A stretch of DNA of 64,000 nucleotides from Rhodospirillaceae bacterium SYSU D60007 (lineage in GTDB: Bacteria > Pseudomonadota > Alphaproteobacteria > Reyranellales > Reyranellaceae), in contig QOCQ01000002.1 of assembly GCA_003574685.1 (NCBI GenBank), positions 1 to 64,000 of the forward strand, given 5' to 3'. The position numbers and the translations under genes are program-made. Shown here piece after piece: positions 1-13,147 of the stretch. Each line of letters starts with the position of its first letter. Position 1 is the stretch's first letter. A model generated the notes under the pieces. That model was not told the origin of the DNA. It searched no databases and worked only from the letters and a program-made list of their open reading frames with translations.

Positions 1-1004
1 CCGAAGCGCTGAGGCGCGAACTGGATGCGGCCCGCCGGACGACCGAGATGCAGACCGCCGCCTCGGGCAAATCAGCCGAGGAAGCGGAGCAGGCCCGGCA
101 GGCCGCAGTACGCGCCGCCGAGGAACTACGGCAGGCCCTGTCGCAGGAGCGCCAGAAGGCCGAAGCGCTGGCGCGCGAACTGGATGCGGCGCGACGGGCC
201 GCCGAGACGCAGACCGCAGCCTCGGGCAAATCGGTTGAGGAAGCGGAACAGGCCAGGCAGGCGGCGGTGCGCATTGCCGCCGAGCTGCGACAGGCCTTGC
301 TGGAGAAGCACAAGCAGGCCGAGGCGCTGGCGCGCGAACTCGACGCCGCGCGACTTGCGGCCGGCACGCAAACGGCAGCCGCCACCCAATCCGCCGATGT
401 GGCGGACCAGGCGCGGCAGGCTGCCGAACGCCTCGTCGCCGAACTGCGGCAGACGCTGCTGGAGGAGCGCAAGAAAACCGAGGTGCTGGCGCAGGAGGTT
501 GACACCGCGCGTCGCGCCGCCGAAGCGCAGACCGCAGCCGCTGCCAAATCCGCCGATGAAGCGGAACAGGCCCGGCAGGCTGCCGCGCGTGCTGCGGAGG
601 ACTTGCGGCAGGCGCTGTTGCAGGAGCGCGAAAGGGCCGAAGCGCTGGCACGCGAGCTGGTTGCGGCCCGCCGTGCGGTCGAGACCCAGACCGCCGCTTC
701 GGGCAAGTCAGCCGATGAGGCACCGCAGGCGCGGCTCGCGGCGGAACGCAGCGCTGAAGAAATGCGCCAGGCGCTCTTGCAGCAGCGCGAGAAAGCCGAG
801 GCTCTGGCGCGCGAGCTGGCGGCTGCGCAGCGCACGATCGAGACACACGCGGCCGCGACACAGGACTCCGATCGCCGGCTCGCCCAGATGCAGGAAGATG
901 TCAGGATGGCGGCAGCCGCCTATCGACAGGCGCTGGCAGAAGAACAGCAGCGGGCCCGCACGCTGCAGGCCGAGCTGGCGATTGCCCGGCGAACGACGAC
1001 GGAG
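1..1004 (+). repeat. Tandem 159-bp in-frame repeats
   Basis: Units starting at 51, 210, 369, 528, 687 and 846 have a constant 159-bp period (53 codons), and part of another unit precedes base 51. Units 1, 2 and 5 share the start CAGACCGC(C/A)GC(C/T)TCGGGCAA. Later units diverge, the last one most. Period and frame are strictly kept, so the array evolved as coding sequence by unequal recombination or slippage. Confidence 0.85.
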
Positions 1005-1376
1005 CCTGCCGCCGCCAGCGGACCGGCACCAAACGTGAGCCAGGCCCGAACCACCGCGCCAGCGAATGCGGCGCAACCGGCTGCCCTGCCACTGGACCCC
1101 GCCAGCAGCGCGGAAGCGGCAAGGCTCATCGCGCGGGCCGGCGAGCTGCTCGCGCAAGGCAATATCGGCGCGGCGCGCATCGTGCTGGAGCGGGCCGTGG
1201 AGCTGGGCAGTGTCCAGGCGGTGTTCGCGCTGGCCGAAACCCATGATCCGCTGGTGCTGACGAAATGGCAGACGCTTGGCACGCAAAGCGATGCGGCCAG
1301 AGCGCGCGAACTCTATGCCCGGGCGCTGGCAGGCGGCATCCAGGATGCGGCGGCCCGGCTGGAGGCATTGCAGTAG
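1..1376 (+). CDS. Long alanine-rich coiled-coil repeat protein with Sel1/TPR-like tail (5' end outside window)
   Basis: The reading frame is open from base 3 to the TAG at 1374-1376, so the start lies upstream. About 330 residues are a 53-residue repeat rich in A, E, Q and R (typical core EEAEQARQAA, ending AEALARELDAAR). This composition predicts a long continuous coiled coil. The last repeat is more diverged, followed by a short A/P-rich linker. The last ~90 residues have the helix pattern of TPR/Sel1-like repeats (AGELLAQGNIGAARIVLERA, later ARELYARALAGG), a domain usually used for protein binding. No signal peptide can be judged because the N-terminus is missing. Function is unknown; a structural or scaffold role is only a guess. 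The TAXI gene follows 54 bp downstream on the same strand. Confidence 0.8.
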   Translation, partial: EALRRELDAARRTTEMQTAASGKSAEEAEQARQAAVRAAEELRQALSQERQKAEALARELDAARRAAETQTAASGKSVEEAEQARQAAVRIAAELRQALLEKHKQAEALARELDAARLAAGTQTAAATQSADVADQARQAAERLVAELRQTLLEERKKTEVLAQEVDTARRAAEAQTAAAAKSADEAEQARQAAARAAEDLRQALLQERERAEALARELVAARRAVETQTAASGKSADEAPQARLAAERSAEEMRQALLQQREKAEALARELAAAQRTIETHAAATQDSDRRLAQMQEDVRMAAAAYRQALAEEQQRARTLQAELAIARRTTTEPAAASGPAPNVSQARTTAPANAAQPAALPLDPASSAEAARLIARAGELLAQGNIGAARIVLERAVELGSVQAVFALAETHDPLVLTKWQTLGTQSDAARARELYARALAGGIQDAAARLEALQ

Positions 1377-9766: not shown

Positions 9767-10150
9767 ATGATCCGTCGACACGTGCTTGTGTACGCGTTCG
9801 CGACCGCGTTCGCCTTGTCTTCGCCGGCGCTGGCGCAGGCGCCCAACTCCGCCCTCAACGCGCTGGTGACAAAACACGCACGCGCCAACAATGTGCCCGA
9901 AGCGCTGGTGCACCGGATCATCTTTGAGGAGAGCCGCTATCATCCGCGCGCGGTCGGTCGCGGCGGCGCCATGGGACTGATGCAGATCAAGTACAGCACC
10001 GCTCGCGGGCTGGGGTATCGCGGTTCGCCAGCCGGCCTGCTGGATCCCGACACCAACCTGACATGGGCCGTGCGCTACCTCGCCGGTGCCTGGCGCATGT
10101 CCCAGGGCGATCCTGATGTCGCCCGCATTCTCTATGGTACGGGCTACTGA
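9767..10150 (+). CDS. Small exported lytic transglycosylase (SLT domain)
   Basis: This 127-aa protein starts at the ATG at 9767, right behind AGGAGG. Residues 1-24 form a signal peptide ending ALAQA. The rest is one compact SLT domain: EESRYHP with the likely catalytic Glu at 55, GAMGLMQIKYSTARGLGY (68-84), and DPDTNLTWAVRYLAGAW. These enzymes cleave the peptidoglycan glycan strand non-hydrolytically in the periplasm. It is one of the minimal members, with no extra binding domain. A second, unrelated transglycosylase lies 1.8 kb downstream. Confidence 0.9.
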   Translation: MIRRHVLVYAFATAFALSSPALAQAPNSALNALVTKHARANNVPEALVHRIIFEESRYHPRAVGRGGAMGLMQIKYSTARGLGYRGSPAGLLDPDTNLTWAVRYLAGAWRMSQGDPDVARILYGTGY

Positions 10151-10310
10151 GCCGCCGCGCTGCTGCGCGCCCTGTTCACGGGATCGTGAGCATCTGGTAA
10201 GGGCATCAGCCGTCCAGGGCCATGGCATCGCCGCACTTCTTGGCTGCCGTCGCGTTTGTGTCTAATGACTTCCACAGCGCCGGGAGTCAGGGGCGTGCGG
10301 GAGTTTGCTG

Positions 10311-11942
10311 ATGGCAAGAGCGACAAGGAAGAAGGCGGCCACCAAGAAGCGCACGAGCGCCGCGAAAAAGCCTGTGGCGAAGAAGGCTGCGAAGAAGGCG
10401 AGGGTCGCAACGAAGGCGAAGAAGACAGCCACGACAAAGACGACGGCCAGCCGCAAGCCGGCGCGCGCAAAACCTGCCGGCGGCACGAAAGTCACGAGAC
10501 CACGGACGAACGGCACCGCAGCCTCCGGGAATCAGGAGCGCCGCAAGCCCGCAATCGCGTCTCAGCCGTTGGCGCCGACCATTGTGGCAACACCGGCACC
10601 AGTGCCCGCAAGCGCCGACGCCAACCTCCTGAACGATGTGCTGGCGTGGACGCGCGCCGCGGGCGCGGATGCCGCCGACGCGATTTACGTCGAAGGCACC
10701 CAGCTCTCGGTCAGCCAGCGCCTGGGCGCACGCGAGCAGCTTGAACGCAGCGAGGGTCATGATCTCGGACTGCGCGCCTTCGTCGGCACGCGCCAGGCGA
10801 TCGTCTCCACCACGGACCTGCAGGTGGATGCGCTGAAGGAGCTGGCGGCGCGCGCGGTGGCGATGGCCCGCGCCGTGCCGGAAGATCCCGTGTGCGGCCT
10901 CGCGCCGCCCGAAATGCTGGCGCGCACATGGCCGGAGCTCGATCTCGATGACGGCCGGGAAGCGACTGTCGATCAGCTCGCGGACTGGTGCGCCCGCGCC
11001 GAGGATGCAGCGCGCGCCGTGCCCGGCGTGACCAATTCCGAGGGCGCCGGCGCCTCATGGGGCCGCACGCGCGTGATGCTGGCCGCCAGCAACGGCTTCA
11101 CCGGTGGCTACAGCCGCGGCGGCTATTCGCTCTCCTGCTCGGTGCTGGCCGGCGATGGCACCGGCATGGAGCGCGACTACGACTGGACCACCGGCGTCGG
11201 CGTGGATCAGCTCGAAAGCCCCGAAAAGACCGGCCGCACCGCAGGCGAAAGGGCCGTGCGCCGACTCAATCCGCGCCGCATGAAGAGCACCCGCGCACCG
11301 GTGGTCTACGATCAGCGCGTGGCATCCAGCCTGCTGGGGCATCTTGCCGGCGCCATCAACGGGCGCGCGATCGCGCGCAAGACATCGTTCCTGCTCGACA
11401 GGCTGGGGCAGCGCATCTTCCGGCCAGGCATCCGGGTCGTTGACGATCCCCATCGCAAGCGCGAGTCGGGTTCCCGCCCCTTCGACGGCGAAGGCTTGCC
11501 GACGCGGCGCTGGAACATCATCGACGATGGGGTGCTCACGACCTGGGTGCTCGACCTGGCCTCGGCGCGGCAGCTTGACCTGGCGCCGACCGGCCATGGC
11601 AGCCGCGGCGTCTCGGGCCCGCCGGGGCCGTCCACCAGCAACCTTTATCTGGAGGCCGGGGGCGCGTCGGTCGAGGAGCTGATCGCGGACATCGAGAGCG
11701 GCCTGTACGTGACCGAGCTGATCGGCTTCGGCGTCAACGGTGTCACCGGCGACTACAGCCGCGGTGCTGCCGGATTCTGGATCGAGAACGGCAAGATCGC
11801 CTGGCCCGTTTCGGGCATGACCGTGGCCGGCAATCTGAAGGACATGTTTCTTAACCTGACGCCCGCCAGCGACCTCATCTTCAAGGGCTCGGTCAATGCG
11901 CCCACCGTGCGGATCGATGGCATGACCATCGCCGGAGAGTGA
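10311..11942 (+). CDS. pmbA: PmbA/TldE-type protein with histone-H1-like N-terminal tail
   Basis: This 543-aa protein has about 440 C-terminal residues that are a standard PmbA (TldE) subunit: LLNDVLAWTRAAGADAADAI, SEGHDLGLRAFVG, YDQRVASSLLGHLAGAING, SRGVSGPPGPSTSNLYL and ELIGFGVNGVTGDYSRGAAG. PmbA is the non-catalytic partner of the TldD metalloprotease; tldD is not in the window. Unusually, residues 1 to about 100 are a basic tail (17 Lys and 6 Arg in the first 60) rich in Ala, Thr and Pro, like bacterial H1-type proteins. The ATG at 10311 has GGGAG seven bases upstream; a TTG two codons earlier is too close to that site. No better start lies at the usual PmbA N-terminus. Confidence 0.88.
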   Translation: MARATRKKAATKKRTSAAKKPVAKKAAKKARVATKAKKTATTKTTASRKPARAKPAGGTKVTRPRTNGTAASGNQERRKPAIASQPLAPTIVATPAPVPASADANLLNDVLAWTRAAGADAADAIYVEGTQLSVSQRLGAREQLERSEGHDLGLRAFVGTRQAIVSTTDLQVDALKELAARAVAMARAVPEDPVCGLAPPEMLARTWPELDLDDGREATVDQLADWCARAEDAARAVPGVTNSEGAGASWGRTRVMLAASNGFTGGYSRGGYSLSCSVLAGDGTGMERDYDWTTGVGVDQLESPEKTGRTAGERAVRRLNPRRMKSTRAPVVYDQRVASSLLGHLAGAINGRAIARKTSFLLDRLGQRIFRPGIRVVDDPHRKRESGSRPFDGEGLPTRRWNIIDDGVLTTWVLDLASARQLDLAPTGHGSRGVSGPPGPSTSNLYLEAGGASVEELIADIESGLYVTELIGFGVNGVTGDYSRGAAGFWIENGKIAWPVSGMTVAGNLKDMFLNLTPASDLIFKGSVNAPTVRIDGMTIAGE

Positions 11943-11950
11943 CAGTGGCG

Positions 11951-13147
11951 ATGCGTCCGATCTTCCTTGCCGGATGCCTGCTGGTCGCGGCAGGCGCCGG
12001 GCCGGTGGTCGCGCAGTCCGGTGATTTCCGCCCCTGCCTCGATGCCATCCGCGATACGGCCATCAGCCAGGGCGTGCCCGCGGCGACGGCCGATCAGGCG
12101 CTGCGCGGCATCACGCCCGATCCGCGGGTCGTGGAGCTCGATTCGCGGCAGCCGGAATTCACCCTGACGCTTGGCCGTTATCTGGGCAACGCCGTGAGCC
12201 CCGAGCGCGTGGCAAAGGGCCAACAGATGCTGGCGCGCTACCGCACGCTGCTGGATCCCATCGAACGCGAGTACGGCGTGCAGGCGAGCTATCTCGTTGC
12301 GTTCTGGGGTCTGGAGTCCAACTACGGCAGCTTCACGGGCGACTTCTCCGTCATCCGGTCGCTCGCCACGCTGGCGTGCCAGACCAAGCGGGCAGCGTTC
12401 TTTTCCAACGAGCTGGTGCAGGCGCTCAAGATCCTCGCGCGCAATCACATGACGGCGGCGCAGATGAAGGGTTCCTGGGCCGGCGCCATGGGCAATACGC
12501 AGTTCCTGCCCTCCACCTATGTCGACCACGCCGTCGATCGCGACGGCGACGGGCGGGTCGATCTCTGGAGCAGCCTGCCGGACGTCTTCGCCTCTTCCGC
12601 CAATTTCCTCGCCCGCAGCGGCTGGAAGCGTGGCCAGCCCTCGCATGACGAGGTCGCCCTGCCCTCGAATTTCGACTATGCCCGCACCGATCTGTCGGCC
12701 GAACGGCCGGTGCGCGAGTGGCATGCGCTGGGGGTGCGGCGCGCCGACGGCCGGCCGCTGGTCGACTATGGCGAGCACGCTTCCATCGCCTTGCCCGCCG
12801 GCCACCGCGGACCCGCCTTCCTGCTGTGGCCGAACTACAAGGTGATCCTGATGTGGAACCGTTCGCAGCTCTACGCCCTGTCGGTGGGCGAGCTGGCGCG
12901 GCAGATCAGCGGCGGTGCGGGCCTGATGCGGCCACCGCCGCCCGACGACCAGCCGCTGGCGCGCCATGCGATCTTCGATCTGCAAGCGCGCCTGCAGCGC
13001 CTGGGACACTACACCGACGATATCGACGGCCTGCTGGGCCCGCGCACGCGCGCGGCCCTGCGCGATTTCCAGGTGCGCGCCGGCGTCGTGGCCGACGGCT
13101 ATCCCACCCCCGACACCCTCTCCCGCCTGCGCGCCGCCACGCCGTAG
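11951..13147 (+). CDS. Lytic murein transglycosylase, MltB family, with peptidoglycan-binding domain
   Basis: This 398-aa protein has a signal peptide (residues 1-21), an SLT_2/MltB catalytic domain at about 25-320 with AFWGLESNYG (catalytic Glu122), and a C-terminal peptidoglycan-binding domain (FDLQARLQRLGHYTDDIDGL, then GPRTRAALRDFQ). It cleaves murein glycan strands in the periplasm. GAMGNTQFLPSTY is the MltB counterpart of the substrate-cleft motif. It follows pmbA by a few bases. In-frame GTG codons at 11939 and 11945 are possible starts closer to the GGAGAG; the ATG at 11951 gives a clean signal peptide. Convergent with the lipid kinase across a palindromic repeat. Confidence 0.9.
   Translation: MRPIFLAGCLLVAAGAGPVVAQSGDFRPCLDAIRDTAISQGVPAATADQALRGITPDPRVVELDSRQPEFTLTLGRYLGNAVSPERVAKGQQMLARYRTLLDPIEREYGVQASYLVAFWGLESNYGSFTGDFSVIRSLATLACQTKRAAFFSNELVQALKILARNHMTAAQMKGSWAGAMGNTQFLPSTYVDHAVDRDGDGRVDLWSSLPDVFASSANFLARSGWKRGQPSHDEVALPSNFDYARTDLSAERPVREWHALGVRRADGRPLVDYGEHASIALPAGHRGPAFLLWPNYKVILMWNRSQLYALSVGELARQISGGAGLMRPPPPDDQPLARHAIFDLQARLQRLGHYTDDIDGLLGPRTRAALRDFQVRAGVVADGYPTPDTLSRLRAATP

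Follow-up and report, generated by a model that had tools for sequence, protein, structure and literature searches.

A charge-constrained N-terminal tail of graded length on PmbA in Reyranellales as a candidate polyanion tether for TldD/E

The PmbA/TldE protein encoded in the window, that is, in the whole 64,000-nucleotide stretch of DNA analysed here, begins with a basic tail of 102 residues. Comparison with relatives indicates that this tail is a trait of a whole order, Reyranellales (a clade name that rests on the genome names and kinship labels of the relatives), and that it is graded in length. The constraint on the tail, as read from these sequences, is strong for charge and loose for sequence. 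In our analysis there is about an even chance that the tail is a charge-selected, variable-length polyanion tether for TldD/E.

The gene lies on the forward strand at window positions 10311-11942 and encodes 543 residues; both the ORF and its coordinates were verified. The 441-residue core begins at about residue 103 and is that of a normal PmbA, as identified with Pfam, phmmer and Foldseek (residues 103-543; 10617-11942 on the forward strand, stop codon included). It has three Pfam matches in order, all above the curated cut-off: PF01523 (PmbA_TldD_1st, residues 122-186), PF19290 (PmbA_TldD_2nd, 216-319) and PF19289 (PmbA_TldD_3rd, 327-542), which together span residues 122-542. The best solved relative is E. 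coli TldE (5nj5_B; phmmer, 2e-87), with which the AlphaFold2 model aligns in Foldseek at an E value of 3.6e-45, a TM-score (target) of 0.93 and an rmsd of 1.9 over 442 columns. The window core shares fold and domain order throughout with E. coli TldE (PDB 5NJ5). Matches to PDB entries begin in the core. Window residue 116 is paired with residue 29 of E. coli TldE, and about 87 residues have therefore been added in front of the window protein. The window protein lacks HExxxH, the zinc motif characteristic of TldD, and a separate TldD partner gene elsewhere in the window genome (L134:10851-12287, contig C3) carries HEAVGH. The top NCBIfam match is the equivalog PRK11040.1, at 341.5 bits under a cut-off of 438 bits that probably fits only closer kin of E. 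coli PmbA. By homology, the window gene encodes TldE/PmbA, which in the TldD/E metallopeptidase is the structural subunit and has no catalytic role.

The tail (residues 1-102; 10311-10616, forward strand) is rich in Lys, Ala, Thr, Pro and Arg and is predicted to be disordered, an annotation drawn from composition, the AlphaFold2 model and the matching tails of 61 relatives. It has 18 Lys, 10 Arg, 26 Ala and 10 Pro, and only one Asp or Glu. The AlphaFold2 pLDDT is below 50 throughout residues 1-101, and intrinsic disorder is what the model predicts for the tail. The histone H1-like, Lys/Ala/Thr/Pro-rich stretch of about 100 residues before a normal PmbA core, as given in a preliminary description, is real: the tail stands before three Pfam domains with the fold of TldE. 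Among 341 ORFs of the same genome, called by a simple method from a 434-kb sample in which some runners-up are probably spurious frames, the tail holds the top 80-residue segment both for Lys (18, against 11 in the runner-up) and for charge (+27). The tail alone gave zero matches to Pfam and NCBIfam, and hence no homology to a histone or linker-histone domain was found; queried against its own genome, it gave weak matches only (E 0.08 or worse), most of them interrupted by stops. Elsewhere in the genome, the protein encoded at L124:13532-14296 ends in a short C-terminal tail rich in Ala and Lys (PKRAAKKAPARKKAAAKRRR). In the ORF at window positions 48-1376, a coiled-coil-like unit of Ala, Glu and Arg (EEAEQARQAAVRAAEELRQAL) recurs several times in nearly the same form.

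The strength of the ribosome-binding site, the conservation of the start within the genus and protein-level selection on the homologous tails make translation from near residue 100, set beforehand as the finding that would overturn the tail, unlikely. A GGGAG ribosome-binding site (10299-10303, forward strand), identified from the sequence, a genus-invariant GGAGTT and the anti-Shine-Dalgarno energy, stands 7 nt 5' of the ATG at 10311. The anti-Shine-Dalgarno duplex at this ATG has an energy of -6.9 kcal/mol, which is matched by 3.3% of random positions and is the strongest among the candidate starts; for the in-frame internal GTG/TTG codons at 10374, 10569, 10584, 10602 and 10638 the energy is -2.2 to +1.2. 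A downstream start that would remove the tail was rejected, given the weak pairing of these internal codons and the conservation of an in-frame tail. The TTG at 10305, which shares the ribosome-binding region, is a possible alternative start that would lengthen the protein by just two residues. Three other genomes of the genus retain the ATG, the GGAGTT and a block further upstream, whose sequence in these relatives is TCGCTTCCG..TTTGTGTCCTATTA. This block (10240-10268, forward strand), conserved in the alignment of four same-genus loci, is a candidate promoter and reads TTGGCT-17-TAATGA in the window; we call it putative because a scan for the sigma-70 consensus gave no match. Fusion with an upstream H1-like gene was also rejected, as the neighbour is a short lytic transglycosylase-like gene (9767-10150) and tail length is graded from the MAKAKK start. 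So was a sequencing or assembly artefact, as 61 other loci also have tails. Matches upstream of the gene that cross stop codons in some relatives look like low-complexity search extension, and the MAKAKK start sits 3' of a stop codon in those relatives whose upstream sequence was read.

The relatives of the window found in a scan of named genomes come from Vineibacter terrae (L040, same genus), Reyranella sp. CPCC 100927 and many Reyranella and Enhydrobacter genomes. The presence of the tail in homologues, which had been proposed as a check, is borne out: 62 of 62 Reyranellales PmbA proteins, window included, have a basic MAKAKK-like N-terminus. In this set the tail is 9-149 residues long, with a median of 23.5. 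The longest tails, of 102-149 residues, are in the window's genus, Vineibacter, where all three other genomes are long-tailed. Tails of 70-117 residues occur in one Reyranella group and a tail of 71 residues in another family of the same order (L084/L140), while many Reyranella have 9-14 residues only. At 16 alphaproteobacterial loci outside the clade the segment is 3-22 residues long and mostly acidic or neutral. The preliminary description had called such a tail unexpected on a protease subunit. The tail is there, but it is not the oddity of one protein, and the subunit that carries it is the non-catalytic one; TldD has no tail in the window genome or in two same-genus genomes.

Outside the clade, a 150-genome phylum sample gave no stop-free match through the tail region, with a filter that would miss dissimilar compositions. 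A survey of the class (289 genomes), followed by reading of candidate starts, found a 125-residue Lys/Ala/Pro tail in G114, from another alphaproteobacterial family (L186, G114:C8:73900-75200). Relatives in that family with readable starts have just 10-11 residues, and the tail of G114 is therefore probably a separate gain, independent of and convergent with that of Reyranellales. In the same family, three genomes each have two adjacent PmbA-like matches (G454, L208/L215; G456, L214/L213; G457, L210/L216), possibly the result of tandem duplication.

The tails are almost free of acidic residues. Pooled over the 62 tails the composition is 25% Lys, 26% Ala and 15% Pro, and Asp and Glu make up 7 of 2332 residues (0.3%), against 9.3 +/- 0.4% expected from nucleotide shuffling within codon positions. 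From a Lys codon, Glu and Arg are each one A-G transition away. In 110 close pairs, Lys-Glu differences number 0 in the tails and 58 in the cores (48 of them one-step), and one-step Lys-Arg differences number 30 in the tails and 179 in the cores. By the NG86 method mean pN and pS over 74 pairs are 0.17 and 0.42 in the tail and 0.03 and 0.29 in the core. Protein-guided alignment of repeats depresses apparent dN, a bias from which a frame-blind test is free. In frame-blind nucleotide alignments of the tails of 38 pairs, the differences at codon positions 1, 2 and 3 number 367, 342 and 753, and in-phase bases number 7647 of the 7662 aligned, against 15 out of phase; the third-position excess is absent from one gap-free pair (L087/L096). 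Tail indels among Reyranella relatives are in-frame. These tests cover mostly Reyranella and use pairs that are phylogenetically non-independent; the tails of the window's genus have diverged too far for codons to be compared in this way. Together, the acidic deficit, the absence of Lys-Glu differences, pN below pS and the in-phase third-position excess indicate that the tail is translated and constrained.

The growth of the tail can be read in part from its repeats. Within the window tail there are short imperfect 9/12-bp repeats (GCGAAGAAG / GCGAAGAAGGCT; 10377-10424, forward strand), a possible trace of in-frame expansion; regular KPAA repeats of the AlgP/PhaF type were not found in it. A PmbA tail from the Reyranella clade (L050:2362-2508) consists of 15/30-bp tandem repeats with KKAAP-like units, an array that suggests in-frame expansion. 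The extension probably goes back to a short MAKAKK start that the ancestor of Reyranellales had, and was probably lengthened, in Vineibacter and some Reyranella, by in-frame expansion of Lys, Ala and Pro codons. Alternatively, GC-rich AAG/GCC/CCG repeats might have expanded in frame and left the tail as a nearly neutral by-product, tolerated on an exposed N-terminus of the core and with no specific function beyond sparing folding or solubility. We regard this as rather unlikely. The wide range in length, the tandem arrays of L050 and the weak repeats of the window, and the sufficiency of short versions in many species are all consistent with it, as is the low conservation of tail sequence, which is barely detectable between species of the window's genus. 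Neutrality does not predict so large a deficit of acidic residues, nor that Lys-Glu differences should be absent from tails and present in cores, and the third-position excess, the in-phase indels and the independent gain in the family of G114 also argue against it. Repeat expansion could contribute, by descent, to the scarcity of acidic residues. Neutral expansion accounts for the variation in length, not for the constraint on charge.

PmbA has no known DNA-binding activity and TldD/E no known localisation signal, and the physiological substrates and location of TldD/E are poorly known. From the sequences we infer that the tail binds nucleic acid or another polyanion; what is conserved is charge, not sequence or length. 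Lys-rich low-complexity regions have been associated with nonspecific DNA binding (PMC6821194). The closest functional parallel is PhaF/AlgP of Pseudomonas, which also have a disordered Lys/Ala/Pro-rich tail on a non-packaging protein (PMC9239181, PMC3574117). Their KPAA-repeat tails are C-terminal and reportedly bind DNA and help organise and position PHA or polyphosphate granules (PMC9239181), whereas the PmbA tail is N-terminal, less regular and placed on a peptidase subunit. Streptomyces topoisomerase I and bacterial HU homologues likewise have a Lys-rich disordered extension, thought to give a nonspecific electrostatic grip (cited in PMC6821194), although their cores, unlike that of PmbA, already act on DNA. 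Chlamydial Hc2 (HctB) is also Lys-rich and has a size set by the number of repeated pentamers (PMC2848022); it is a stand-alone histone-like DNA-binding protein, whereas in PmbA the tail is on an enzyme subunit.

In the simplest mechanism, by analogy with PhaF/AlgP, the tail would work as a sequence-nonspecific electrostatic tether. It would keep the TldD/E heterodimer close to a polyanion and thereby close to substrates with unfolded N-termini; the likeliest polyanion is DNA of the nucleoid or RNA, with polyphosphate as a further possibility. Because versions of 9-14 residues persist in many species, tail length would tune affinity and would not be an on/off switch of function. The same short tails of many Reyranella speak against a tether, being too short for strong DNA binding. 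Composition alone cannot name the polyanion, and basic disordered regions also aid solubility and bind acidic protein surfaces or lipids.

The partner of the tail might also be a different anionic surface, either anionic phospholipid of the membrane or an acidic protein surface, ribosomal or envelope-associated. Basic disordered segments generally bind anionic surfaces, and an MltB-type lytic transglycosylase gene (SLT_2 + PG_binding_1 by Pfam/NCBIfam; 11939-13147, forward strand) lies directly 3' of pmbA across the order. The two genes are within 130 nt of each other at 58 of 61 Reyranellales loci and about 2 kb apart at two more; within the sequence examined at each of 16 other alphaproteobacterial loci, no MltB-type gene was found. 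The pair is clade-specific, in the same clade as the tail, and gives no mechanism. Gene adjacency by itself is weak evidence, the transglycosylase is presumably exported whereas PmbA is presumably cytoplasmic, and the tail is very poor in hydrophobic residues able to insert in a membrane. We consider a partner of this kind very improbable.

The most specific alternative is that TldD/E itself takes the tail as a substrate, in a regulatory or sacrificial way. The disordered N-terminus of TldE could enter the channel of the complex to which it belongs, or that of a neighbour, and act there as an autoinhibitory plug or a timer or be trimmed after synthesis. TldD/E has an access channel between the TldD domains, into which at least 15 unfolded residues are threaded N-terminus first with little sequence preference; an acidic loop has been proposed as a plug, and basic residues surround the channel mouth (PMC5810440). 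This structure and biochemistry fit a tail that is N-terminal, predicted to be disordered and, in the window's genus, far longer than 15 residues. On the estimate of about 15 residues, the tails of 9-14 residues in many relatives would not extend as far as the active site, which argues against a plug or self-substrate as the general role, and such a role alone leaves the near-lack of acidic residues unexplained. We judge this reading improbable, if less so than a membrane or acidic protein partner.

Returning to the polyanion tether, TldD/E digests unfolded N-termini and has been linked with CcdA and with the maturation of microcin B17, each of them gyrase-connected, and E. coli screens connected tldD/tldE with CcdB and microcin B17, both of them gyrase inhibitors (PMC5810440). 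We searched the literature for PmbA together with Reyranella and found no papers; for TldD with the nucleoid, nothing relevant was found in titles or abstracts. We speculate, with low confidence, that the charge-selected tail on the non-catalytic subunit, tunable in length, tethers TldD/E of Reyranellales to the nucleoid (or to polyphosphate) and so limits its trimming of unfolded N-termini to substrates bound to DNA, for example antitoxins or peptides that target gyrase. If the nucleoid reading is true, Reyranellales would have a spatially restricted version of the TldD/E peptidase. The lineage also shows how an H1-like extension can be gained step by step on a protein for which no role at DNA is known, and its removable, charge-constrained and graded tail offers a direct route to asking whether TldD/E acts at the nucleoid.
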